A stretch of 11,749 nt of DNA from Candidatus Desantisbacteria bacterium CG1_02_38_46 (GTDB taxonomy: Bacteria; Desantisbacteria; UBA1551; UBA1559), in the NCBI GenBank assembly GCA_001871015.1, contig MNUO01000057.1, forward strand, positions 1 through 11,749. Reading direction: 5' to 3'. Shown here piece by piece: positions 1 to 11,749 of the stretch. The notes beneath the pieces are model-generated. The model was not told the DNA's origin and searched no databases. It saw only the letters and a list, made by a program, of their open reading frames with translations. A program made the position numbers and the translations under genes. The first letter of the stretch is position 1. The number at the start of each line of letters is the position of its first letter.

Positions 1-115
1 CAGGGAGGATTTAACCCATCTCTTTCGAAAGGTAAATATTCAAGTAAACTCTCGTCTATCTGTAGTAGCAAAGTTTACTTTGCTATGTAGTGGCAAAGCT
101 TACTTTGCCCGTAGG
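1..115 (+). repeat. 115-bp direct repeat, copy A
   Basis: This stretch recurs at 2909-3023 with only two visible differences, both in the last hairpin (cttac versus ttcac). It contains a short palindrome ctttcgaaag (22-31) and two hairpins of the gcaaag...ctttgc type. The window begins inside or exactly at the start of this copy, so its left boundary is unknown. In copy B the repeat is fused to an ABC-ATPase start remnant, so the same may be true just upstream of position 1. The two copies bracket the AlbA_2 regulator and the MNT/HEPN genes. Confidence 0.9.
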
Positions 116-134
116 GGTTTGATTCATCAAACCC
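68..134. repeat. Cluster of three small hairpins
   Basis: Three compact hairpins lie in a row. The first is gcaaagt-tt-actttgc (68-83). The second is an imperfect version of it (93-108). The third is gggtttgat-tc-atcaaaccc (115-134), a 9-bp stem. They are separated by constant words related to GTAGTGG and CCCGTAGGGG. The same modules recur around 1839-1879, 2777-2823 and 2976-3016. No oligo-T tail follows, so these are not standard intrinsic terminators. Confidence 0.8.
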
Positions 135-141
135 GATAACT

Positions 142-177
142 ATGTCTAACAATACTGTAATTAAATTAGCCCGATGA
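142..177 (+). pseudogene. ABC-transporter ATPase start remnant, copy 1 (11 codons)
   Basis: The frame reads MSNNTVIKLAR and then TGA. Its first nine codons match those of the longer remnant at 1888, which continues into a recognisable ABC-ATPase N terminus. The similarity stops at about position 168, where hairpin repeat sequence takes over. The same hairpin plus about 8 nt (cccgataact) precedes the ATG here and at 2831, and nearly the same at 1888, so leader and gene start were copied as one block. It is far too short to be functional. Confidence 0.55.
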
Positions 178-261
178 ATCAGGCAACTACAGAAATTCCG
201 TTGTAGTTGCTCAATTTATTGAGCGCCTTATGATTAAACGTAGTTGCACGAGTTATCGTGC
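172..261. repeat. Second hairpin cluster upstream of the AlbA_2 gene
   Basis: Several inverted repeats sit side by side. An 8-bp stem caactaca/tgtagttg has a 10-nt loop (184-209). It abuts gctcaat-tt-attgagc (209-224). After a short gap comes gcacga-gtta-tcgtgc (246-261). The 16-nt hairpins have a different stem sequence from the gcaaagt type but similar length and the same preceding word GTAGTTGC or GTAGTGGC. The stem therefore varies on both arms while the shape stays. The region ends 19 nt before the promoter of the next gene. Confidence 0.75.
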
Positions 262-280
262 GGTGTTTTAACATCTCCTC

Positions 281-309
281 TTGACATTCATTTTTTATTT
301 AGGTATAAT
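281..309 (+). promoter_or_regulatory. Consensus sigma70-type promoter of the AlbA_2 gene
   Basis: A perfect TTGACA (281-286) and a perfect TATAAT (304-309) are separated by exactly 17 nt. Transcription should start near 316, only about 9 nt before the ATG at 325, so the mRNA would be almost leaderless. No Shine-Dalgarno sequence is visible there. Confidence 0.85.
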
Positions 310-326
310 GTTCACAGTTTGAACAT
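308..326. promoter_or_regulatory. Candidate operator overlapping -10 and start codon
   Basis: This is a perfect inverted repeat with 7-bp arms, ATGTTCA and TGAACAT, separated by 5 nt. It begins at the end of the -10 box, covers the expected transcription start and ends inside the ATG. A protein bound here would block both polymerase and ribosome. The encoded protein ends in a winged helix, so autorepression is the simplest inference. Confidence 0.6.
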
Positions 327-1740
327 GGATAATTCAAAAGAACTTATTTCGCAAGGTGAATCAGAGACGGTTGAGTTCAAAGAATCCTTACACCTAAAGG
401 ATAAAATTGGAGAAACCGTTTCTGCTTTCTCTAACTCAAAAGGAGGAATTATCCTTATCGGGGTTTCTGATAAGAAAAGGATTAAAGGAATTCAAATTGG
501 AAAAGAGACAACGATAGATTTGGCAGAATACATAAAAAGAAATACAGACCCGGTAATTTTTCCCTCTCTGAGGGTTGAGGAAATTGAGAAGAAAGAAATT
601 GTGGTGGTTGCAGTAAAAGAGGGTGCAGAAAAACCGGTTTTCTTTAAGAATTATGCCTACAAGAGAGTTGGCAATACAAATCAAAGGATCTCTTCCAGTG
701 AACTGAGAAAATTGGCAAAGGAAAGTGGTGAGAGAATTTACTGGGATGAACAGGTTTATAAAGAATCAAGTATAGAGAATATTGATTGGACATTTGTTAA
801 AAACTTTTTTATACGGGAGTATGAAAAATTCTCTAAGAAGATAGTTATTGCAACTCCGGAAGAATTGTTGGAGACGTTAGGTTGTATAAAGGAAGGCAAG
901 ATTACAAATGCTGGCATTTTACTGTTTGGTAGAAATCCACAGAAATTTTTCAGAAATTCGCACATCGCCTTAGCAAGATATAAAGGAAAAAATGAAGGTG
1001 TGGAAAGATTGGATTACAAAGAATTTTTGGGTAATTTATTTCATCAAATTGACGAATGCGATAAATACATCAAGGAGCATATAACAATGATGTCAAGGCT
1101 ATTACCCCACAAAGTAGAAAGAGAGGATATTCCCGAATATTGCTGGTTTTCTATAAGAGAGTTGATAACCAACGCTGTTTGCCATCGAGATTACGAAGAC
1201 CAAGGAAGTAAAGTTATTGTGAAGATGTTTTCCGACAGAGTCGAATTTTATAACCTGGGAGGCTTACCCAAAGGAATAACTCCCGAAAATATTTTAATTA
1301 GACAATATTCCAGAAATCCTATTATTGCCAATGCGCTTTCACAGGTAAAATACATAGAAGAATTAGGAGAAGGTTGGAATAAGATTATTGATGAGCATAA
1401 GAACCACCCGTTAAAACCAAAACTACCAAAGATTATATCTGACAGATATAGCATCCTTGTGATTTTATATTCTGTGAGAGAAAAGTTCGAGAAGACAACA
1501 ACAGAACTGAATGAAAGGCAAAAAAAAGCAATCGGATATTTAAGATGTAACGAAAGAATAACAAATAAGAAATATCAGGAAATAAACAAAACTACTAAAA
1601 AAACAGCGACAAGAGACTTACAGGAATTGACTGAATTAGAAATACTGATTAAAAATGGTAGAACTGGTAGAGGAGTATATTATAGTTTAAATTCGAGTTA
1701 TAAAGGGGACAAAAGGGGACAAAAGGGGACAAATACATAG
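325..1740 (+). CDS. AlbA_2 / HATPase / winged-helix regulator (RecG-like annotation)
   Basis: A 471-aa cytoplasmic protein. Residues about 10-125 are a Schlafen AlbA_2 domain (GESETVEFKES near the start, FSNSKGGIILIGV, then YKRVGNTNQ). Residues about 275-355 carry a GHKL-type HATPase_c_4 domain with N-box ELITNAVCHRDY and a later GEGW glycine patch. Residues about 393-455 are a winged helix-turn-helix with an ATRDLQEL recognition segment. Such proteins are often annotated as ATP-binding proteins or transcriptional regulators related to RecG, but no helicase motifs are present. The frame is open from 244, yet the first 27 codons of that frame cover a hairpin and the promoter, so I place the start at the ATG at 325. 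The target genes and bound nucleotide are unknown. The C-terminal tail is encoded by a 10-bp tandem repeat. Confidence 0.87.
   Translation: MDNSKELISQGESETVEFKESLHLKDKIGETVSAFSNSKGGIILIGVSDKKRIKGIQIGKETTIDLAEYIKRNTDPVIFPSLRVEEIEKKEIVVVAVKEGAEKPVFFKNYAYKRVGNTNQRISSSELRKLAKESGERIYWDEQVYKESSIENIDWTFVKNFFIREYEKFSKKIVIATPEELLETLGCIKEGKITNAGILLFGRNPQKFFRNSHIALARYKGKNEGVERLDYKEFLGNLFHQIDECDKYIKEHITMMSRLLPHKVEREDIPEYCWFSIRELITNAVCHRDYEDQGSKVIVKMFSDRVEFYNLGGLPKGITPENILIRQYSRNPIIANALSQVKYIEELGEGWNKIIDEHKNHPLKPKLPKIISDRYSILVILYSVREKFEKTTTELNERQKKAIGYLRCNERITNKKYQEINKTTKKTATRDLQELTELEILIKNGRTGRGVYYSLNSSYKGDKRGQKGTNT
1702..1731 (+). repeat. Three tandem 10-bp units at the 3' end of the AlbA_2 gene
   Basis: The unit aaaggggaca is present three times without mismatch and encodes the basic, glycine-rich tail of the regulator, with the stop codon right after. 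Because 10 is not a multiple of 3, gain or loss of one unit would change the reading frame at the tail. Confidence 0.85.
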
Positions 1741-1760
1741 ACACTATATCTTTCCCTTAG

Positions 1761-1792
1761 GTCATTGCGAAGCCGAAGGCTGTGGCAATCTC
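1761..1792. repeat. REP-like palindromic element (GTCATTGCGA type)
   Basis: The sequence starts gtcattgcga and ends ggcaatctc, with an inner agcc-gaa-ggct hairpin and outer attgc/gcaat arms. It resembles a widespread class of extragenic palindromes with cattgcgag...gcaatct ends seen in unrelated bacterial genomes. It is unlike the other hairpins in this window. It lies just after the AlbA_2 stop codon. Assignment is from memory of the motif. Confidence 0.5.
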
Positions 1793-1831
1793 CTTTCATT
1801 GAGCGTTGTAGTAGTCAAGATTGCTCGACAA

Positions 1832-1880
1832 TGTAGTGGCAAAGTTTACTTTGCCCGTAGTGGTTTGATTCATCAAACCC
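1832..1880. repeat. Hairpin pair preceding ABC remnant copy 2
   Basis: After the word TGTAGTGG come gcaaagt-tt-actttgc (1839-1854) and ggtttgat-tc-atcaaacc (1862-1879), the same two modules in the same order as at 93-134. The spacer CCCGTAGTGG differs by one base from CCCGTAGGGG elsewhere. The ATG of the next remnant follows 8 nt after the second hairpin. A weaker attg/caat pair lies just upstream (1819-1831). Confidence 0.75.
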
Positions 1881-1887
1881 GACAACT

Positions 1888-2005
1888 ATGTCTAACAATA
1901 CTGTAATCAAGTTAGAAAAAGTAGGAAAGCGGTAAAGAGAATATATCTGTGCATTAAAGGATGTCTCCTTTAAGGTAAAGGAAGGGGAGGTTTTAGGAAT
2001 AATTG
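1888..2005 (+). pseudogene. ABC-transporter ATPase (Wzt/TagH-like) N-terminal remnant, copy 2
   Basis: The frame reads MSNNTVIKLEKVGKR, TAA at 1933, then in the same frame REYICALKDVSFKVKEGEV followed by LGII. This is the beginning of a polysaccharide-export ABC ATPase, in which ALKDVSFxVxxGEVLGIIG immediately precedes the Walker A motif. Here the sequence leaves the family exactly at that point and runs into the promoter/operator of the next gene. The stretch usually found between KRY and the REY..ALKDVSF segment is also missing, so at least one internal deletion is likely. No Walker A, signature or Walker B motif remains. Family assignment is from motif recognition; it cannot be functional. 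Confidence 0.75.
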
Positions 2006-2031
2006 ACAATTGTATACAAAACATATACAAT
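2003..2031 (+). promoter_or_regulatory. Promoter of the winged-helix/MNT gene
   Basis: TTGACA (2003-2008), a 17-nt spacer and TACAAT (2026-2031, one mismatch to TATAAT) fit a sigma70-type promoter. Transcription would start near 2038, about 25 nt upstream of the ATG. The -35 box touches the last codons of the ABC-ATPase remnant, so the promoter begins exactly at a mosaic junction. Confidence 0.7.
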
Positions 2032-2051
2032 TGTATATAAAACATATACAA
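2006..2051. promoter_or_regulatory. Tandem 21-bp repeat with 16-bp palindromic operator
   Basis: A 21-bp unit (2006-2026) is repeated directly at 2027-2047 with one mismatch, and four bases of a third unit follow. At the junction lies a perfect 16-bp palindrome, atatacaattgtatat (2023-2038), which covers the -10 box and the expected transcription start. The half-site TATACAA or its complement TTGTATA also occurs alone at 2010-2016 and 2045-2051, so there are several spaced half-sites. This is a likely binding site for the winged helix encoded just downstream. Confidence 0.7.
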
Positions 2052-2062
2052 AGGAATAAACG

Positions 2063-2635
2063 ATGTTAAAATATTTAATTTCCTCGCGCCCAAAAAGAAA
2101 ACTCCTTTCGCTTTTCCTCACTCATCCTGAAGAGAAATTCTACATTCGGCAATTAGAGAGGTTGGTTTCTGAACCTGTAGGTGCAATTCAAAGAGAATTA
2201 CCTAAATTAGAAAAAATGAGGTTGGTAAAATTTGAGACCAGTGGCGGAAGAAAAAATTATTTTTTAGATAAAACCTGCCCGATAAAAGAAGAGTTAAAAA
2301 GTATCATCCTAAAGACAATTGCTCTTGGAGAGAGAATAAAGGAATTAATTAAAAAAACAAAAAATATTAAATACGCTTTCGTATATGGTTCGGTAGCAAA
2401 AGGAGAAGAAGACATAAAGAGCGATATCGACTTAATGGTAATTGGCAATATTGATGAAATAAAACTTCAAGAAAAAATCCAACAAATAGAATCCAAAATT
2501 TCCCGGACAATTAACTATACTCTGATGAATATAGAAGAATTTAAGAAAAGATTAAACGAGAAAGAACCTTTTTTAATGAGGATTTTGGAGGATAAAAAAA
2601 TAGAAATAATAGGTTCGGAAAATGAAATACGATGA
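2063..2635 (+). CDS. Winged-helix minimal nucleotidyltransferase (MNT) protein
   Basis: A 190-aa protein. Residues about 1-75 form a winged helix typical of transcriptional regulators fused to nucleotidyltransferases (FYIRQLERLV, AIQRELPKLEKMRLVKFE). From about residue 100 comes an MNT-type NTP_transf_2 domain with G109-S110, then the metal-binding pair D121 and D123 in SDIDLMV. In MNT-HEPN toxin-antitoxin systems the MNT protein modifies or neutralises a HEPN ribonuclease encoded next door, and fused winged helices suggest autoregulation. That fits the palindromic operator upstream. The start is the ATG at 2063, with AAAGGA 7 nt before it. The next frame, a truncated HEPN gene, overlaps by 14 nt. 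Nucleotidyltransferase activity is inferred from motifs only. Confidence 0.85.
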   Translation: MLKYLISSRPKRKLLSLFLTHPEEKFYIRQLERLVSEPVGAIQRELPKLEKMRLVKFETSGGRKNYFLDKTCPIKEELKSIILKTIALGERIKELIKKTKNIKYAFVYGSVAKGEEDIKSDIDLMVIGNIDEIKLQEKIQQIESKISRTINYTLMNIEEFKKRLNEKEPFLMRILEDKKIEIIGSENEIR

Positions 2636-2768
2636 TTTAATTAAAGAGAACAAAATAAAACAGGAAAAAGCCCGCCCTGGAGAGATAGAAGATTTGTTCT
2701 CTCTGGCAGAACGGGATTTAAAAACTGCAGAGTTTATTGTGGTAAAACTTAAAGAACTTTGCTTGTAG
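2622..2768 (+). pseudogene. Truncated HEPN-domain gene (MNT partner)
   Basis: An ATG inside the end of the MNT gene opens a 48-codon frame. It includes EIEDLFSLAERDLKTAEFIV, the usual first helix of a small HEPN-domain protein paired with MNT. HEPN proteins of this class are normally well over 100 aa and carry an RxxxxH-type motif in a later helix. That part is absent. The stop TAG lies in the word TTGTAGTTGTAG, which belongs to the hairpin repeat beginning here, so the truncation coincides with a repeat junction. Whether the short peptide is made is unknown. If the pair was a toxin-antitoxin module, the HEPN half is now broken. Confidence 0.72.
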
Positions 2769-2823
2769 TTGTAGTAACAAAGTTTACTTTGCTCGTACCG
2801 TAGGGGTTTGATTCATCAAACCC
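2766..2823. repeat. Hairpin pair at the HEPN truncation point
   Basis: The block starts with GTAGTTGTAGTAAC. It carries acaaagtttactttgc (2777-2792, first base changed from the usual g) and gggtttgat-tc-atcaaaccc (2804-2823). Its order and spacing match the hairpins at 93-134 and 1839-1879, and the ABC-ATPase start follows 7 nt later. It supplies the stop codon of the HEPN frame. Confidence 0.75.
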
Positions 2824-2830
2824 GATAACT

Positions 2831-2998
2831 ATGTCCAATAATAGTGTAATTAGGTTAGAAAAGGTAGGAAAGCGGTATCGGGATTGGAAAAGAGAGATAC
2901 CACTCCTTCAGGGAGGATTTAACCCATCTCTTTCGAAAGGTAAATATTCAAGTAAACTCTCGTCTATCTGTAGTAGCAAAGTTTACTTTGCTATGTAG
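2831..2998 (+). pseudogene. ABC-transporter ATPase N-terminal remnant, copy 3, fused to 115-bp repeat
   Basis: A 55-codon open frame begins MSNNSVIRLEKVGKRYRDWK, clearly the same gene start as copy 2 but with an intact KRYR instead of the early stop. Third-position and conservative differences from copies 1 and 2 (tcc for tct, agt for act, R for K) show that it is a diverged paralogue and not a recent duplicate. ABC similarity ends near 2890-2908, where the 115-bp repeat begins, and the frame ends at a TAG inside that repeat. No Walker motifs are present. Confidence 0.7.
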
Positions 2999-3023
2999 TG
3001 GCAAAGTTCACTTTGCCCGTAGG
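2909..3023 (+). repeat. 115-bp direct repeat, copy B
   Basis: This copy is near-identical to 1-115. It includes the hairpins gcaaagt-tt-actttgc (2976-2991) and gcaaagt-tc-actttgc (3001-3016). After position 3023 the two copies part: copy A continues into the gggtttgat hairpin, copy B into a short unrelated frame and then the radical SAM gene. It lies in the leader of the glycan gene cluster. Confidence 0.9.
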
Positions 3024-3106
3024 ACATCGTCGGCCAGAAAATTCCAGCAGGAAACTGGATAATTGGGCAAAAAGAACGGGGATATAACTTCTATGCAAGA
3101 AATTGA
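3023..3106 (+). other. Possible 3'-end gene remnant overlapping the radical SAM start
   Basis: One frame is open from directly after the repeat to a TGA at 3104-3106. It reads DIVGQKIPAGNWIIGQKERG and then seven more residues. It could be the last 27 codons of a gene whose front was removed when the repeat arrived. I do not recognise the family. Chance openness over 27 codons is quite possible. Confidence 0.25.
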
Positions 3107-4052
3107 TGTTATTGAAGAATATCAGAAATACTTTTCAGATAGGAAACAATTTTCCTTTCCTCTACGAGTGACTGTGGAGTTGACCAATCACTGCAATCTT
3201 GACTGTCCAATCTGCCCGCGGCAATATTTAGTTAAAAGACCGGATTACAAAGAAGGATTTATGGACAAGGAACTTTATCAAAAGATTATTGACGAGATGG
3301 CAGAATATCCAAATGTTGCTTTAGTTCCATTCTTCCGGGGAGAATCGCTTCTCCATCCTGAATTTATTAAGATGCTTGCTTATGCTAAAGAAAAAGGAAT
3401 TAAGCCAATCCAGTTGGCAACGAATGCAACATTACTAAATGAGAAAACCTCTCGAAATCTACTTGACTTAGAGATAGACTTTATTTCCTTTAGCCTTGAT
3501 GCCTCTGGCAAAGAAAGTTATGAGAAGATAAGGGTTGGCGCCAATTATGAGAAGGTGATGGAAAATATAGAGAATTTCTTAGTCGAAAAACAGGAAAGAG
3601 GATTAAAAAGACCAGCGGTTCAGGTCTCGGTAGTCAAAACAGAAGCGACAAAGGAAAAAATCCCACGATTTATCTCTTTTTGGCTAAAGAAGGTGGAACG
3701 GGTAAGAGTCTATGAGGAGCATTCCACCAACAGAAAATTCGGGAGTCTAAAAAATAGCCCTGATTTAAAAGAAGAAAGGAAACCCTGCCTAAAACCATTA
3801 AGCGATATAGTTATTTACTGGGATGGCGATGTTGCTCTTTGTAATCATGATTGGAATAGAAAAGAGCCTTTTGGCAATATCAGAAAAGAGAGCATAAGAA
3901 ATGTCTGGAATGGTAAAAATTATAATGAAATCAGAAAGAGGCAGTTTGAGAATAGAGCGGAGGAAGACCCTACCTGCAAGGGCTGCGATCACTGGAGACT
4001 CTATTATCTGCCAAAAAGGATGATTGGCGAACTCCATACAAAAAATGATTAA
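3093..4052 (+). CDS. Radical SAM protein with SPASM-like C-terminal cysteines
   Basis: A protein of about 319 aa. The radical SAM cluster motif CNLDCPIC (C34, C38, C41) would bind the [4Fe-4S] cluster that cleaves S-adenosylmethionine. The glycine-poor FFRGESLLHP segment and SFSLDAS fit the radical SAM barrel. Near the C terminus C232, C250, C295 and C298 suggest a short SPASM/twitch-type auxiliary-cluster region, with GNIRKESIRNVWNG typical of that family. The substrate is unknown; proteins of this type often sit in polysaccharide clusters. The ATG at 3093 has GGGGA 10 nt upstream. A TTG at 3063 with AGGAAA 8 nt upstream is an equally possible start and would add ten residues. The end overlaps the aminotransferase start by 8 nt, so translation is probably coupled. 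Confidence 0.88.
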   Translation: MQEIDVIEEYQKYFSDRKQFSFPLRVTVELTNHCNLDCPICPRQYLVKRPDYKEGFMDKELYQKIIDEMAEYPNVALVPFFRGESLLHPEFIKMLAYAKEKGIKPIQLATNATLLNEKTSRNLLDLEIDFISFSLDASGKESYEKIRVGANYEKVMENIENFLVEKQERGLKRPAVQVSVVKTEATKEKIPRFISFWLKKVERVRVYEEHSTNRKFGSLKNSPDLKEERKPCLKPLSDIVIYWDGDVALCNHDWNRKEPFGNIRKESIRNVWNGKNYNEIRKRQFENRAEEDPTCKGCDHWRLYYLPKRMIGELHTKND

Positions 4053-5184
4053 AATTCCTTTAACCAAACCATACTTTACAGAAGAAGAGATGAAAGCAGT
4101 ATTTAAGGTATTAAACTCTGGTTGGGTAACTCAAGGAGAAAAGGTAGAAGAATTTGAGAAAAAATTTGCTCAATATTCGGGTGCTAAGTATGCGGTAGCT
4201 CTTAATTCTGCTACTTCCGGCCTTCATCTTTCTCTGCTTGCCCTGGGAATAGGAGAAGGGGATGAGGTAATTCTACCTCCCTTTACCCATATTGCTACGG
4301 CCAATAGCATTGAATATGTGGGGGCAAAACCAATCTTTGCCGATATTGATTCAAAAACCTATAATATTAACCCCAGCTATATTGAGAAAAAAATTACCAA
4401 AAGAACAAAAGCTATTATTCCGGTTCATCTCTTCGGTCTCTGTGCCGATATGAAACCGATAATGAGATTGGCAAAAAAGCATCATCTTTATATTATTGAG
4501 GATGCTGCCTGCGCTTTGGGTTCCAGGTATTTTGGAAAATTTGCCGGAACCTTCGGAGAACTTGGTGTTTTTAGCCTTCATCCACGAAAAATTATTACTA
4601 CTGGAGAGGGGGGAATGGCGGTCACCAATAATCGAAAACTATACGAGAAGTTAAAGGTCCTTCGTTCTCATGGGGCAACTGTTTCTGACTTAGAGCGCCA
4701 TAAAAAAGGTATTCTTGCGCAAGAAAGGTTTAATATCTTAGGTTATAACTACCGGCTGACCGATATTCAAGCCGCCATTGGAATTGAGCAGATGAAGAAA
4801 TTACCCTGGATTATCAAGCAAAGAAGAGAAAGAGCGCATTACTATGATAGATCCTTAACCAATTTAGAATTTATTAAAATACCCTATGTTCCCAAAACTT
4901 ACTTCCATACCTATCAGTCTTATGTTGTTTTGATCAAAGACAATTCTCCCCTTTCCCGGGACAAAATAAGGAAAAGATTGGAAAAAGAGGGTATCAGCAC
5001 AAGAATAGGAACTTATGCTATTCATCATCAAGGCTACTATAAAAGAAAATATGAGATTAAACCGGATGACTTTCCTATTTCATTAAGAGCAGAAAAGCGA
5101 ACAATCACGCTTCCTTTATATCCTCAGATGAGTAAAAAAGAGCAGGATTATGTTATTGAGAGGTTGAAAAAGTGTGTGGAATAG
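4045..5184 (+). CDS. DegT/DnrJ/EryC1/StrS-family sugar aminotransferase
   Basis: A 379-aa PLP-dependent enzyme beginning IPLTKPYFTEEE, the standard N terminus of this family. EDAACALGS is the PLP-ring region, and HPRKIITTGEGG contains the Schiff-base lysine K182. Length is normal. These enzymes transfer an amino group, usually from glutamate, to a keto group of a nucleotide-linked sugar; some homologues are dehydratases, but those replace the lysine, which is present here. The ATG at 4045 sits in ATGATTAA, overlapping the radical SAM stop. A TTG at 4024 in the same frame would add seven residues but lacks a well-spaced ribosome site. The next gene starts inside its last codons. The likely product is an amino sugar for surface glycan; the exact sugar cannot be told. 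Confidence 0.92.
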   Translation: MIKIPLTKPYFTEEEMKAVFKVLNSGWVTQGEKVEEFEKKFAQYSGAKYAVALNSATSGLHLSLLALGIGEGDEVILPPFTHIATANSIEYVGAKPIFADIDSKTYNINPSYIEKKITKRTKAIIPVHLFGLCADMKPIMRLAKKHHLYIIEDAACALGSRYFGKFAGTFGELGVFSLHPRKIITTGEGGMAVTNNRKLYEKLKVLRSHGATVSDLERHKKGILAQERFNILGYNYRLTDIQAAIGIEQMKKLPWIIKQRRERAHYYDRSLTNLEFIKIPYVPKTYFHTYQSYVVLIKDNSPLSRDKIRKRLEKEGISTRIGTYAIHHQGYYKRKYEIKPDDFPISLRAEKRTITLPLYPQMSKKEQDYVIERLKKCVE

Positions 5185-7052
5185 CAGGAAGGATAAACTT
5201 AGATAAAAGCCCTGTATCTATAGAGCTTTTGGAGAAGATGGCTACAATTATGGCCCATCGGGGTCCCGATGATCAAGGGATTTATTTAGAGAAGAATGTT
5301 GGTCTTTCTCACCGAAGGCTTTCTATTATTGATTTATCCTCTGCGGGGCATCAGCCGATGGCAAATGAAGACAAAAGTATCGTTATTGTTCATAATGGCG
5401 AGGTGTATAACTATTTAGAGATAAGGAAAGAATTGGAAAAGAAGAGTTACCGGTTTAAAAGTAATACCGATACCGAGGTTATTCTTCGTTCTTATGAGGA
5501 ATGGGGAAAGGATTGTTTGCTAAAATTTAATGGGATGTTTGCCTTCTGTATATGGGATAAAAGGAATAAGGAACTATTCTTAGCCAGAGACCGCTACGGA
5601 ATAAAACCGCTTTATTACTATTTTCAAAATAATAAGTTTATATTTGCTTCTGAGATAAAAGCTATCCTTCAAAACCCTGAGGTAAAAGCCAAAGTCGACA
5701 AATTTGCCCTCCTGGAATATTTCACCTTCCAGAACATCTTTTCTGAAAGGACCTTATTTGAAAATATGAAACTCTTGCCTCCGGGAAATTATATTAAACT
5801 GAAGGCAGAAACTCCAAGTAACTTCAGACAGGAGAGATGGTGGGACTATGATTTTAGAGAACCCGAACTCGCCCTTTCAGAAGAAGAATATATAGAAGAG
5901 TTGAACAGATTATTTAAGCAGGCGGTTAAGCGGCAACTTATCGCCGATGTGCCGATTGGCTCTTATTTAAGTGGAGGAATTGATTCAGCGGCTATTACAT
6001 CCTTGGCAGTTAAGAATATTCCTTATCTGCCAACTTTTACCGTAGGCTTTGACCTTTCTTCAGCAAGCGGTTCAGAGCTCTCCTTTGATGAAAGGGAAAA
6101 GGCAGAATTCCTTTCCCATCTCTATAAAACTGAGCACTATGAAGCAATCCTGAAGGCCGGCGATCTGGAAAGAGTGATGGAGTCTCTTGTCTGGCATCTG
6201 GAGGATTTAAGGATGGGACAATCCTATCCTGACTACTATGCGGCAAAACTGGCCTCAAAGTTTGTTAAGGTCATCCTCTCTGGCGCAGGGGGAGATGAAT
6301 TGTTTGGAGGATACCCCTGGCGCTATTATCGCGCGGTGGTAAATGATAATTTTGAGGATTACATTGAGAAATATTATCGCTATTGGCAACGACTTATCCC
6401 TAATAGGTTTATGCCCTCTCTTTTCAAACCAGAAACCTGGAAGACAATTAAGGATTACTGGACAATCAATGTGTTTAGAGAGGTTATGAAAGAGAAAGAA
6501 GAGAGGATTTATGGGCCGGAAGATTATGTGAACCGTTCCCTCTATTTTGAAATAAAAACATTCCTTTCTGGTCTGCTTCTAGTAGAGGACAAATTGAGTA
6601 TGGCTCATTCTCTGGAGATGCGCCTGCCTTTTTTAGACAATGATTTGGTAGATTTTGCGATGAAGGTTCCGGTGAGATATAAATTACGCAATTTGAAAAA
6701 GGTTGTTCGCTTAAACGAGAACGAGCCTGGCCCGAAAACCAAGAAATATTTTGAGAAAACCAGGGACGGAAAGTTAATTCTGCGCAAGTTAATGAACCGC
6801 TATGTGCCTCCGGAAATAACCAACCAGGTCAAGCAGGGATTTTCTGCTCCGGATGCCAGTTGGTTCAAGGGAGAGAGCATTGACTATATCAGAAACCTTC
6901 TTCTCAATAAAAAAGCAAAGATATTCAATTATTTGCAATACAATTATGTGAAAAAAATAATTGAGGAGCACAGCAGCGGCAAGGTCAATCATCGTCTCCT
7001 CATCTGGTCCTTCTTAAGTTTTGAATGGTGGCTAAGGAAATTTATGAAATGA
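5172..7052 (+). CDS. asnB: Asparagine synthase (glutamine-hydrolysing), AsnB-like amidotransferase
   Basis: A 626-aa two-domain enzyme. The N-terminal Ntn glutaminase has Cys2 directly after the initiator (MCGIAG), HRRLSIIDLS, HNGEVYNY and the TDTEV loop, all expected for glutamine hydrolysis. The C-terminal synthetase domain has the PP-loop SGGIDS (267-272), LSGAGGDELFGGYP and MRLPFLDNDLVDFA. Ammonia from glutamine is passed to an adenylated carboxylate. In glycan clusters AsnB-like enzymes such as WbpS-type proteins are thought to amidate uronic acids, so the substrate here may be a sugar acid and not free aspartate. The start is GTG, fixed by the need for Cys2, and overlaps the aminotransferase end by 13 nt. 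The gene is intact in length and motifs. The gene symbol reflects family only. Confidence 0.93.
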   Translation: MCGIAGRINLDKSPVSIELLEKMATIMAHRGPDDQGIYLEKNVGLSHRRLSIIDLSSAGHQPMANEDKSIVIVHNGEVYNYLEIRKELEKKSYRFKSNTDTEVILRSYEEWGKDCLLKFNGMFAFCIWDKRNKELFLARDRYGIKPLYYYFQNNKFIFASEIKAILQNPEVKAKVDKFALLEYFTFQNIFSERTLFENMKLLPPGNYIKLKAETPSNFRQERWWDYDFREPELALSEEEYIEELNRLFKQAVKRQLIADVPIGSYLSGGIDSAAITSLAVKNIPYLPTFTVGFDLSSASGSELSFDEREKAEFLSHLYKTEHYEAILKAGDLERVMESLVWHLEDLRMGQSYPDYYAAKLASKFVKVILSGAGGDELFGGYPWRYYRAVVNDNFEDYIEKYYRYWQRLIPNRFMPSLFKPETWKTIKDYWTINVFREVMKEKEERIYGPEDYVNRSLYFEIKTFLSGLLLVEDKLSMAHSLEMRLPFLDNDLVDFAMKVPVRYKLRNLKKVVRLNENEPGPKTKKYFEKTRDGKLILRKLMNRYVPPEITNQVKQGFSAPDASWFKGESIDYIRNLLLNKKAKIFNYLQYNYVKKIIEEHSSGKVNHRLLIWSFLSFEWWLRKFMK

Positions 7053-7636
7053 AAAAGGGTATTGTTAAATATCTTTACTGTCCTGATAAAAAGAGTCCTT
7101 TGGGCCTGAGGGTGGATAAAGAGAAAATGGAAACGCATCCCCCTTCCTTTGGCTACGATAAGAAAGCGGAAAAATATTATCACCATTGGTATCTTGAGCG
7201 CTATGTCTATAAGAAGAAAGGACCTATCCGGGAATTTTCTGATGATTATCTGCGTTCCTTTACTACGAAGATGACCCCAGAAGAATGTTATAAATTCTCG
7301 GAAGCAATTACTCTTTTAGGAAAGAACCTCTCTGAGCTAAAGGTTGAATTTAAGGTGCCAGAAGATATCCCTCTTTTAGGGATTAAGAAAGGAAAGCAGA
7401 ATCTTCAGAGATTTTTCTACTGGAACATATTAAAATGCTTCTGGAATCCTGCCTTTGACTATAAAACAAATGTAATGGTCAACTTTGACTGGTATCATCC
7501 ACAGCTCGCTTTTCGTTACCCTCCAGAAGAAATTAAAAGATGGTTCAAAAATGAAGGATTAACCATTGAGCATTTTAATGTCACAGAGAGTGGAATCAGT
7601 TGCCGAGGTGGGGAAAAAGTGACTAACTTATTATGA
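7049..7636 (+). CDS. Methyltransferase-like protein lacking the SAM-binding core
   Basis: A 195-aa protein. The first residues, KKGIVKYLYCPDKKSPLGLRV, resemble a Trm112-like N terminus but keep one cysteine only. The C-terminal part, with YKKKGPIREFSDDYLRS, FYWNILKCFWNPAF, NFDWYHPQLAFRYPPEEIKRWF and SGISCRGG, resembles the C-terminal part of a class I SAM methyltransferase family common in such clusters. Between them HHWYLERY runs straight into VYKKKG. The Rossmann core expected there (glycine-rich DAGxGxG loop, acidic strand end) is absent, about 100 residues by my recollection of the family. The frame is intact, so this looks like an in-frame deletion. The start at 7049 forms an ATGA overlap with asnB and has AAGGA 10 nt upstream; 7025 is an upstream alternative. 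It is probably catalytically dead. Family recognition is from memory. Confidence 0.72.
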   Translation: MKKGIVKYLYCPDKKSPLGLRVDKEKMETHPPSFGYDKKAEKYYHHWYLERYVYKKKGPIREFSDDYLRSFTTKMTPEECYKFSEAITLLGKNLSELKVEFKVPEDIPLLGIKKGKQNLQRFFYWNILKCFWNPAFDYKTNVMVNFDWYHPQLAFRYPPEEIKRWFKNEGLTIEHFNVTESGISCRGGEKVTNLL

Positions 7637-7696
7637 GAGAGATTAAATTAATCAACAAAGCAATAAATTTGTAAAATTGAATAAGGAGTTACAAAA

Positions 7697-8704
7697 GTGG
7701 TAATTGTGACAGGGGCAAGTGGTTTTGTGGGTAGATATTGTGTTAAAACATTAATTAAAAGAGGATATGAAGTTCTTGCAACAGCAAAGAGCGAAAAAGC
7801 AGAAAATTTCTATAAACATTCTAAAATCCCCTTTGTGAGGGTTGATATAACCAATCCAGAGGACTTTAAAAAACTACCTCAAGGAGGAGTAAAAGCCATT
7901 GTTCACACTGCAGGATTACTCAGTATAGATAGACATCCAGCAAAAGCTTATTTTATGGTGAATGCTTATGGGACATACAATATGTTAGAGTATGCAGTTA
8001 AAACAAATGCAGAAACTTTTGTATATACTATGACTCATAGTGATGTAAATAGAGCTGGAGAATTATATATTACTGAGGATACTCCAAGAAGATTTGGGGG
8101 CAAAGAGACGACTAAATACATTGCTTCTAAAGTTGCAGCTGCTAATCTTGTTGAAGCTTTCACGATAGAATATGGTATAAGAGGTATTTCATTGAGACTC
8201 CCAGGAATTCGGGGTTGGGGTAGTAGAACAGTTGCTTATTGGGAAGGAAAAGAAGAAAAATTTATTTTTAATATATTTGTTGAAAAAGCGATAAAGTCAG
8301 AACCAATAGAAATTTGGGGAGAACATGACACTAAGAGAGATCTAATTTATATAAAGAATATTGTAGATGGGATTATTGGGAGTTTAAAAAGTGAAAAAGC
8401 TGTTGGACTTTATAATTTGGGTTCAGGGCAAGGTCTCACGATAGAGGACGAGGCAAAAGCCATTATAAAAGCATTCTCTCCTTTTAAGAGACCTTCAAAG
8501 TTAGTCTATTTACCAGATGTGGAAGAAGTGAGGAAAAGAAGTTACGTATTTGTTATAGATAAGGCTAAAAGAGATTTTGGCTATGTTCCCAAATTTACCT
8601 ATGAAGAGGCAATGCTTGATATGAAGAGAGATATGGAGAAGGCAGGAAAGGAAAGTCCATGGGATGAATGGACATTAGAAAATATGGATGTAATCGAAAT
8701 TTAA
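7697..8704 (+). CDS. NAD-dependent epimerase/dehydratase (extended SDR)
   Basis: A 335-aa protein with the N-terminal nucleotide-binding motif TGASGFVG (GxxGxxG at residues 6-12), DIT after the third strand, and the catalytic pair Y141 and K145 in YIASK. The later SLRLPGIRGWG and KRDLIYIKNIVDGI segments are typical of sugar-nucleotide epimerases and dehydratases. It would act on an NDP-sugar in the cytoplasm; which one cannot be told. The start is GTG at 7697 with AAGGAG 8 nt upstream. A 60-nt gap separates it from the methyltransferase-like gene, the first real break in the cluster. From here on codons are visibly richer in A and T. Confidence 0.9.
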   Translation: MVIVTGASGFVGRYCVKTLIKRGYEVLATAKSEKAENFYKHSKIPFVRVDITNPEDFKKLPQGGVKAIVHTAGLLSIDRHPAKAYFMVNAYGTYNMLEYAVKTNAETFVYTMTHSDVNRAGELYITEDTPRRFGGKETTKYIASKVAAANLVEAFTIEYGIRGISLRLPGIRGWGSRTVAYWEGKEEKFIFNIFVEKAIKSEPIEIWGEHDTKRDLIYIKNIVDGIIGSLKSEKAVGLYNLGSGQGLTIEDEAKAIIKAFSPFKRPSKLVYLPDVEEVRKRSYVFVIDKAKRDFGYVPKFTYEEAMLDMKRDMEKAGKESPWDEWTLENMDVIEI

Positions 8705-8741
8705 ATTCCTTTAATGCAAAGATTCTCTGGAGTGTATTGTA

Positions 8742-9806
8742 GTGAGCAAAATTGAGATTGAATACCTAAAAAATATAGAAAATGCTGATTTATTGAGAGA
8801 TAATTTAGCCATTGAGAATAAGGGTCTGTTTTTTCACTCATCAGCAAGAATTAATTTTTTAAAAGATTATCTAAAAGCAAAAGATTTATCCATAGGCGCT
8901 CTTATAAATGGGAAATTAGTCGGTTTCCTAAACCTACTTATTAAAGATGGGCCTTTTGGAAAAGTAGCAAATTCCTCTCCTTATTATGGTTCTAATGGAG
9001 GAATTATTCTGGATTTGACACTTCCAGAAGAATTACAGATAGAGATAAAAAAAAGTTTAATAGATTTTACCTACAGAGTAGAACAAGAAAATAATATGGT
9101 GCTTACATGCATTATTACGAATCCTTTATATCAGGATGCCGATTTTTATAGGAAAGGTTTTAAACATGATTTTGAAGACTACAGGATAGGACAGTTAACA
9201 CCCTTGCCAGATAGTGAGGAGAAATTATTTCTTATGTTTCACTACAAAACTCGCAATATGATACGGAAAGCTCAAAAATTTGGTTTTGATATATATACTA
9301 CACATAAAGAGAAAGATGTAGATTTCTTATATGAAACACATAAAGAGAATATAGGACAGATGAAAGGATTGGCCAAAACAAAGGATTATTTTGAAAAATC
9401 TCTTTTCCATTCTGATTATGAATGGAACTTATGGATTGCCTCTTACAAAAGTGAAAGAGCTGCAGCCATGTTGTTATATAAATTTGGTGATGTTATAGAA
9501 TATGTTACTCCTGTAATAAAACACAAATATAGAAGCCACCAGTCGTTGAGTCTTCTGATATACGAAGCGATGAAGGAGGCTACTAAAGCCAAAAGGAAAT
9601 GGTGGAATTGGGGTGGCACATGGAAAACGCAAGATGGTGTTTACAGATTTAAGAAAAGATGGGGAGCAATAGATATGAACTATTACTATTTTATTAGATT
9701 TTCTTCTTCCAAAAAGAAAGAAGCGTTTACAAATTCTTCAAAAGAGTTTTTGCTCTCTAATTATAAATATTTTTATATCGTACCATTTAGTCTTATTAAA
9801 GATTAG
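8742..9806 (+). CDS. FemAB/GNAT-like acyl- or aminoacyltransferase
   Basis: A 354-aa soluble protein without obvious membrane segments. The two-lobed layout fits the FemAB-related GNAT superfamily (peptidoglycan bridge formation and polysaccharide-cluster homologues, Acetyltransf_6-like C-terminal lobe). The C-terminal lobe shows LWIASYKSERAAAMLLYKFGD, YVTPVIKHKYRSHQSLSLLIYEAM, and a tryptophan-rich WWNWGGTWKTQDGVYRFKKRWGA block, where family members have a G..K..FK.rwG signature. It may attach an amino acid or acyl group to an amino sugar, which would fit the upstream aminotransferase. The start is GTG with GGAG 9 nt upstream. The donor and acceptor are unknown. Confidence 0.78.
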   Translation: MSKIEIEYLKNIENADLLRDNLAIENKGLFFHSSARINFLKDYLKAKDLSIGALINGKLVGFLNLLIKDGPFGKVANSSPYYGSNGGIILDLTLPEELQIEIKKSLIDFTYRVEQENNMVLTCIITNPLYQDADFYRKGFKHDFEDYRIGQLTPLPDSEEKLFLMFHYKTRNMIRKAQKFGFDIYTTHKEKDVDFLYETHKENIGQMKGLAKTKDYFEKSLFHSDYEWNLWIASYKSERAAAMLLYKFGDVIEYVTPVIKHKYRSHQSLSLLIYEAMKEATKAKRKWWNWGGTWKTQDGVYRFKKRWGAIDMNYYYFIRFSSSKKKEAFTNSSKEFLLSNYKYFYIVPFSLIKD

Positions 9807-9834
9807 ATAAGGAGTAAATAATAGAGAGTAAGAT

Positions 9835-11145
9835 ATGAAAGTTTGTCTAGTTTATCCTGACTTAATGGATTTTCCAAGTTACTTTGATAAAGTTGGAGGT
9901 ATAATATCAGTATCAAGGAGATTTCTTCCACCTCTTGGTATTTTGTATTTAATTTCAAATTCAAGTAAAAAAATAGATTTTATTGATAATAGAATTACCA
10001 GATATCCCGATGAGGGGTTGTATAATAAATTAAAGGGTTTTAATATTGTTGGATTTGGTGGTACGGTAACAGAGGTTAAACAAGCAAAAAATGTTGCAAA
10101 GTTACTTAGAGAGTCTGGAGTAATAACAATTTATGGCGGGGCTAATGCAACGCTTAATTATAATCAATATACGAACAATTTTGATATTATTGTTAGAGGG
10201 GAGGGCGAGATTACATTTGAGGAAGTTCTGAATGCGTTAGAGAAAAAAAGGCCTTTGGATAACATACCAGGAATAGTTCACAAGAAAGATGGCAAAATAA
10301 TTCATAATTCTGACCGGCCCTTTATTCAGAATTTAGATATTCTAAAATATCCTGCTAGAGAAATTCGTGATCTTAAAAGATATTTGTGGTCAAAATCTGT
10401 TTATCTTAATGTGTTTCCAACTGTAGTTCCAATGAATACAGTTTTAAGTGGTAGAGGATGTCCATATATGTGTACATTTTGTTCTTCAAAATTGATGTGG
10501 AAACAGATATATCGGAAAAGACGAGTAGAAGCAGTTGTTAAAGAGATTGAATATCTGATGGAGAATTTTGAAACCAGAAGTATTTATTTTAGAGAGGATT
10601 TATTTACCAGACCTCGGGAATGGGTTTTGAAATTCTGCAATAGGGTTAAACCTTTAAATATAGAATGGATGTGCGAATCACGAGTTGATACTGTTGATAA
10701 AGAAATGTTAAAAGTAATGAGAGATGCTGGATGTGTAGCAATGTGGTTTGGGATAGAATCTTGTTCTAACAAAACTCTAAGATTAATTAAAAAGGGATTT
10801 ACTATAGAACAGGCAAAGAGGACAATTAAAAATTGCAATGAAGTTGATGTTATTTGCGGAGGCAATTTTATGTTTGGTTTTCCTCATGAAACAAGAGAAG
10901 ATATACTTTTTAATTTTGAAGAGGCCCAAAAATTAGGCCTTGATTGGATCGCTTTTTCTAGACTCATAGGTTTTCCAAGATCAGAGCTTTATGATCTTTT
11001 TAGAAAAGAGAGACTAGATAGATACGAATATGAAAGTATAATAGTACCTGATACCCGATATATGCATGCCGATGAGGTTACAGATCTTGGTTATAGCAAA
11101 TTCCCTGAAATTATAAACTATAATAAATCTCATAAATTAAAGTAG
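9835..11145 (+). CDS. B12-binding-domain radical SAM protein
   Basis: A 436-aa protein. Residues 1-150 resemble the cobalamin-binding fold found before many radical SAM domains (KVCLVYPD, IVGFGGTVTE, IYGGANATLN, IVRGEGEITFEEVL), but no DxHxxG cobalt-ligand motif is visible, so the fold may bind cobalamin without a His ligand or not at all. The radical SAM motif is CPYMCTFC (C209, C213, C216), followed by the ERVDTVDKEML-like SRVDTVDKEML segment, GIESCSNKTL and MFGFPHET, all usual in this class. Relatives carry out methyl transfers to unactivated carbons, ring formation and other steps; the substrate is not predictable. The ATG at 9835 follows the FemAB-like gene by 28 nt, with a weak purine-rich ribosome site. 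Confidence 0.87.
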   Translation: MKVCLVYPDLMDFPSYFDKVGGIISVSRRFLPPLGILYLISNSSKKIDFIDNRITRYPDEGLYNKLKGFNIVGFGGTVTEVKQAKNVAKLLRESGVITIYGGANATLNYNQYTNNFDIIVRGEGEITFEEVLNALEKKRPLDNIPGIVHKKDGKIIHNSDRPFIQNLDILKYPAREIRDLKRYLWSKSVYLNVFPTVVPMNTVLSGRGCPYMCTFCSSKLMWKQIYRKRRVEAVVKEIEYLMENFETRSIYFREDLFTRPREWVLKFCNRVKPLNIEWMCESRVDTVDKEMLKVMRDAGCVAMWFGIESCSNKTLRLIKKGFTIEQAKRTIKNCNEVDVICGGNFMFGFPHETREDILFNFEEAQKLGLDWIAFSRLIGFPRSELYDLFRKERLDRYEYESIIVPDTRYMHADEVTDLGYSKFPEIINYNKSHKLK

Positions 11146-11146
11146 G

Positions 11147-11517
11147 ATGAGAACTATTGTTAAGAGAATAATTAAATTCTCAATTTTTTTACTTATTTTT
11201 ATTCCTTGGACAGTCATTTTAATTATTTCATTCCCTTTTATCTTAAAGAGTAAATATAAAAGAAAAAAGGGGTTAAAGCCAAATATACTCTGGGAACCTG
11301 TTCCTATAATAAGTATTAAATATTGCTCTGAAGCTGTGAAACTGTTTGGTTATAAAGTACCACTTTGGTCTATAATCTATACCATATTTGCGAAAAAGGG
11401 GATTTTGACCACTCTTTATCCGAGTTCAATTATTCTAAAATGATCAGGTTTCTGGTTTATTTTACTATGCCTTATATCCCACATTCCGCAATTATCGTTG
11501 AAAACCATTGCAAATAA
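11147..11517 (+). pseudogene. Frameshifted 5' part of a glycosyltransferase-like gene
   Basis: The ATG lies 1 nt after the previous stop. The open frame has a hydrophobic segment (about residues 9-33) and then GLKPNILWEPVPIISIKYCS with GYK, reminiscent of group-1-type glycosyltransferases. That frame ends at 11443 with an unconvincing tail. In another frame, from 11359, the protein-like sequence resumes as TTLVYNLYHICEKGDFDHSL and continues to a TAA at 11515. One missing A in the AAA run at 11354-11356 would join both halves as GYKSTTLVYN. So this is probably a 1-nt deletion, either real or a sequencing/assembly error. Even the joined frame is only about 120 codons, far short of a full glycosyltransferase. 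Confidence 0.55.
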
Positions 11518-11724
11518 AGGACTTGATTTTAAAATTGCGACTACATTGGCTTACTCCAAAGAAAATTAATTTGGAGAAACCTGTGCTGAAATTAAGTGAC
11601 CAAGACCAATATTCTTCAGTAGAGATACTTGATGCCGTTGTAGGGGAATAGTTTTTTTCCTGGTCTCTCCTGTCAGGACATTTTTAAATGTTACCAACTT
11701 ACATGGGGTAAAAGGAGCATATAG
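11518..11724 (+). other. No confident gene; possible decayed coding sequence
   Basis: One frame is open from 11502 to a TAG at 11649-11651 and includes KPLQIKDLILKLRLHWLTPK and LEKPVLKLSDQDQYSS, with a protein-like composition but no start codon or family that I recognise. A small inverted repeat acattt-tt-aaatgt lies at 11678-11691. A T-run at 11652-11658 has no stem directly before it, so I do not call it a terminator. Confidence 0.3.
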
Positions 11725-11749
11725 TTGAGTGGAATTCAGGAAGTCTTTT
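11725..11749 (+). CDS. Possible start of a gene cut by the window edge
   Basis: AAAGGAG at 11711-11717 lies 7 nt before a TTG (11725) and 11 nt before a GTG (11729), each opening a frame to the window end (MSGIQEVF or MEFRKSF). The strong ribosome site suggests a gene begins here, but seven or eight codons cannot identify it or decide the start. Confidence 0.3.

Follow-up and report, generated by a model that had tools for sequence, protein, structure and literature searches.

Truncated copies of an ABC ATPase gene start among GTAG-type REP hairpins on a Candidatus Desantisbacteria contig

The left part of contig MNUO01000057.1 of Candidatus Desantisbacteria bacterium CG1_02_38_46 raises the question of why homologous starts of an ABC ATPase gene occur three times, at positions 142, 1888, and 2831, each cut at a different point. 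The window analyzed here is the complete contig (C121; 11,749 nucleotides), and the cut copies are best read as the outcome of ordinary gene decay amid many repeats, not as a new kind of element. The ATPase remnants and the sequences that trail them are as follows.

1 to 60, plus strand: tail following the ATPase start of a presumed fourth copy (copy 0), its left side cut by the contig edge; part of a repeat of 2909 to 3023
142 to 168, plus strand: copy 1, the first nine codons (MSNNTVIKL) of the ATPase gene
1888 to 2006, plus strand: copy 2, the ATPase start up to just before Walker A, with a TAA at 1933 to 1935
2831 to 2908, plus strand: copy 3, an ATPase start alignable with copy 2 for about 16 to 18 codons
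2909 to 3023, plus strand: copy 3 tail and two GTAG-REPs (2970 and 2995), near-identical to 1 to 115

The likeness among the three start blocks is far above chance, with block 61 to 169 matching 1807 to 1915 at 88% identity (E 5e-34) and 2770 to 2877 at 86% identity (E 1e-30), which bears out a first-pass annotation that had picked out starts of the type MSNN(T/S)VI(K/R)LEK at these positions. That annotation was also right about several base differences among the copies and about a shared upstream hairpin (GGTTTGA-TTCA-TCAAACC), which it placed 7 to 8 nt away and which ends exactly 7 nt 5' of the ATG in all three. The remnants keep 9 to 39 codons per copy. Copy 1 enters an inverted REP (169 to 190) after nine codons, as had been proposed for its cut point, and meets a TGA at 175. 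Copy 2 does reach LGII, right before the expected Walker A (2007), where its end had been placed, but the in-frame TAA at codon 16 was overlooked. For copy 3, the proposed cut about 20 to 26 codons in is plausible, the alignment with copy 2 being somewhat shorter, as listed above. All three stop before Walker A and are without Walker A and B, the signature motif, and the C-terminal domain, which binds carbohydrate in Wzt.

Positions 1 to 115 repeat 2909 to 3023 at 98% identity, with two differences, both in a hairpin loop, which shows a recent duplication of the unit of tail plus REP. Because the window is the whole contig, a fourth ATPase start probably lies just beyond the contig's left end. 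The copy 3 tail was suspected of being another dispersed repeat, which was ruled out since its matches are confined to this contig.

Judged by its sequence and its distribution, the hairpin is a dispersed repeat of the known GTAG-REP kind and not the leader of the ATPase gene, as the first-pass annotation had taken it to be. Members of the GTAG REP super-family have stems of about 5 to 13 bp and a small loop, occur in clusters and inverted pairs, and can sit within open reading frames (PMC3733652). A scan for hairpins headed by GTAG picks up 11 elements in 62 to 3016 and none in the remaining 8.7 kb (3024 to 11749). They lie at 62, 87, 111, 203, 240, 1833, 1857, 2800, 2970, and 2995 on the plus strand and at 190 on the minus strand, with GTAG directly 5' of a hairpin of 6- to 8-bp stem and 4-nt loop; the stems vary (GCAAAG, GTTTGA, GCTCAA, GCACGA, and GCCTGA), and the GTAG head and 4-nt loop are constant. 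In addition to the pair in the copy 3 tail, the scan gives these arrays.

62 to 134, plus strand: three GTAG-REP hairpins (62, 87, and 111) before copy 1
169 to 190, minus strand: inverted GTAG-REP cutting copy 1 (GTAG-TT-GCCTGA-TTCA-TCGGGC)
203 to 265, plus strand: two more GTAG-REPs with other stems (203 and 240)
1813 to 1880, plus strand: GTAG-REP array before copy 2 (1833 and 1857, with a degenerate one at ~1815)
2765 to 2823, plus strand: GTAG-REP array before copy 3

Two observations argue for a dispersed repeat: sister REPs are scattered through the genome, and in unrelated genomes the same element has no ABC gene beside it. Genome-wide there are 104 matches to the sister pattern GTAGTGGCARAGTTYACTYTGC (GCARAG type, at most one mismatch), and the reversed control gives none. 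The ATG-adjacent subtype, TTTGATTCATCAAA, occurs in this genome at only three sites, the three gene starts, and is found, the same or with one base different, in 7 of 385 other genomes, where the sequence around the matching hairpins contains REPs and no ABC start. Matches to the start block in two other genomes were first taken for more ATPase starts, and their sequences proved to be hairpin repeats without one. Viral contigs yielded one exact match to the hairpin. An enrichment of GTAG hairpins was also seen in a biased set of loci, many of which had been chosen by likeness to the repeats. The window has no match to a known RNA in Rfam, and there is thus no sign of a known riboswitch or other structured RNA.

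A Y1_Tnp search of the assembled genome gave three matches, none seen between two inverted REPs; one is a partial gene near REPs, and the other two are without flanking REPs in the stretches examined. One locus of this genome (L027, 1459 to 2442) codes for a Y1 transposase domain joined to the C-terminal helix-turn-helix domain of DnaA, again with no flanking REPs in the stretch examined. Separately, the window has another palindrome-like repeat at 1761 to 1790, CATTGCGAAGCCGAAGGCTGTGGCAATCTC, with four 93% matches in a genome of the same order (G001).

The decayed gene was likely a Wzt-like polysaccharide exporter ATPase, an identity that we infer from a short stretch of 26 to 39 residues in copy 2 together with the polysaccharide-type gene cluster to its right. 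The 39 residues of copy 2 have weak NCBIfam matches to many ABC ATPases, TagH-type models included, and on their own no Pfam match, and 19 of 26 residues are identical in a PF00005- and Wzt_C-bearing exporter ATPase from a different genome. Copy 2 had been called a Wzt/TagH-like exporter ATPase from the outset; the ABC similarity is supported, and the narrower Wzt/TagH assignment is plausible on these 26 to 39 residues. The first-pass annotation had further called for a genome search for block copies and an intact parent, and neither a further start nor a parent turned up in the assembly. The start block also has no further copy in the 385 other genomes, and an ATPase-start query of 42 aa, a composite of copies 2 and 3, had no match in the one other genome of the phylum that was searched; plasmid records gave two weak ABC matches. 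The search for an intact parent covered an assembly that is 88% complete, the best remote ABC ATPase there having 33% identity to a query whose part beyond Walker A was an added generic Wzt-like stretch and not window sequence.

The genes between the copies are of other kinds.

325 to 1740, plus strand: intact Schlafen/AlbA_2 plus HATPase_c_4 (RecG-like) gene between copies 1 and 2 (Pfam E 3e-25 and 3e-17)
2006 to 2047, plus strand: two 21-nt direct repeats, ACAATTGTATAYAAAACATAT, a possible operator of the next gene
2063 to 2635, plus strand: MntA-like nucleotidyltransferase gene with an N-terminal winged-helix-like region (Polbeta E 2e-11)
2622 to 2768, plus strand: 48-aa open reading frame ending at a REP, a putative truncated HEPN start

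The Schlafen/AlbA gene has a DNA copy, 68% identical, on contig C131, and carries three tandem 10-nt units at its 3' end (about 1702 to 1731). The nucleotidyltransferase matches the MntA_antitoxin model at E 3e-7, under the model's cut-off, and the 48-aa frame, which has no family match, is probably a HEPN partner of which only the start is left. To the right, 3063 to 11145 holds radical SAM/SPASM, DegT aminotransferase, asparagine synthase, epimerase, FemAB, and B12-binding radical SAM genes and resembles a surface-polysaccharide or modified-glycan cluster.

On balance, we lean toward reading the locus as remnants of exporter ATPase copies, beside a surface-polysaccharide-type cluster, with recombination between REP arrays as the process that duplicated and scrambled them. 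REP arrays lie directly before the remnants of an ABC exporter ATPase, probably Wzt-like, within them, or at their ends, and several duplications of a segment of REP plus gene start would have followed, for which unequal recombination or replication slippage between neighboring REP arrays is the simplest route, the copies then diverging in part while coding. As we infer the order of events, copy 1 would later have been cut by a REP pair that the Schlafen/AlbA gene follows; a stop codon and the MNT/HEPN-like gene pair would have cut copy 2, and a tail leading into another REP array copy 3.

Several junctions fall at REPs: copy 1 is cut exactly at the inverted REP, and the 48-aa frame and the copy 3 tail both end at one. 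Recombination at the hairpins, which the first-pass annotation had proposed, is thus a fair reading for these, but copy 2 has its junction (2007) away from any REP, in the repeat-bearing region upstream of the nucleotidyltransferase gene. The same annotation spoke of repeated seeding of a leader-plus-start block, which is not needed, since duplication and decay in a REP array suffice. Against this account of duplication and decay stand the position of the copy 2 junction, the restriction of the TTTGATTCATCAAA subtype to three sites, the failure to find in the assembly an intact parent or locus or a transposase between two inverted REPs, and the small numbers behind the lean to third codon positions given next.

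The differences between the copies bear on a tenable but rather unlikely alternative, that several full-length exporter ATPase paralogues with REPs already upstream were acquired or kept separately and that each was lost independently, with no recombination at REPs. The bases that changed between copies are mostly at third codon positions (5 of 7, binomial P = 0.045; 6 of 8 with the stop, P = 0.020; both on small numbers) and are mostly synonymous, as if the copies diverged while still coding. Separate paralogues would fit these changes, which also speak for the account of duplication and decay, and the different length of gene kept in each copy. They fit less well with the leaders of copies 1 and 3, which are identical over 31 nt while the coding parts differ at 5 of 27 positions (Fisher P = 0.018, uncorrected), or with the 98% duplication of the unit of tail plus REP; these two features together suggest exchange or duplication around REPs.

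Another alternative looks to the origin of the contig, which is possibly mis-binned or recently transferred to judge by its composition and repeats. The exact-match REPs of the GTAGTGGCARAGTTYACTYTGC pattern on other contigs all have a GCAGAG stem, and those here have GCAAAG, as in part of a distant genome (G114). The GC content is 35.6%, whereas 50 stretches from elsewhere in the bin have 39.0 ± 2.0%, and in tetranucleotide distance the first 3 kb come out at the upper edge (0.295 versus 0.203 ± 0.033), the comparison stretches having been fetched by similarity searches and not being a random sample; later parts of the window are nearer to the bin's composition. The contig also begins inside a repeat. 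That it is mis-binned or chimeric, with the triple pattern coming from another organism or being partly an assembly artefact at repeats, is nevertheless quite unlikely: many bases set the copies apart, and the genes lying between them are not the same, such that assembly error alone is insufficient. Least probable, and very improbable overall, is that hairpin and gene start form a mobile block or recombination site that collects cassettes (the Schlafen/AlbA gene and the MNT/HEPN pair) behind gene starts, for which the different cargo after copies 1 and 2 and the abutment of each cargo stretch's right end on the next REP array could speak, since the start block was not found again in this genome or in the 385 others (the matches there being the hairpin and its immediate flank), the cargo stretches are joined at differing positions, and the window shows no recombinase gene.

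Returning to duplication between REP arrays and subsequent decay, the main gain as it stands is the corrected reading of the hairpin from a gene leader to a dispersed repeat. In a small space, the locus of this uncultured bacterium exemplifies REP hairpins placed where duplicated and decayed genes join, and if REP-driven duplication is true, REPs would shape gene turnover at surface-polysaccharide loci. A broader proposal, that REP arrays in this lineage are recurrent joints at which a gene start is duplicated and unrelated defense-like genes replace the rest, so that cassettes at surface-polysaccharide loci turn over through REPs, is highly doubtful.

Known systems invite comparison. The gene pair behind copy 2 recalls the MntA/HepT type VII toxin-antitoxin, the nucleotidyltransferase here scoring below the MntA cut-off and its companion, a stub of 48 aa, matching no family. 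The hairpins share with GTAG REPs (PMC3733652) and RAYT-linked REPs (PMC2817692) the GTAG head, short stem, small loop, occurrence in clusters and inverted pairs, and position adjoining or inside genes; they differ in that the ATG-adjacent subtype has only three copies here and no REP-flanked transposase gene was found in the assembled part. Compared with Wzt/TagH-type exporter ATPases (PF00005 with Wzt_C), the remnants are down to 9 to 39 codons and lack Walker A and B, the signature, and the C-terminal domain, but the N-terminal stretch up to the LGII before Walker A matches copy 2, and the neighboring genes suit a surface-polysaccharide cluster.
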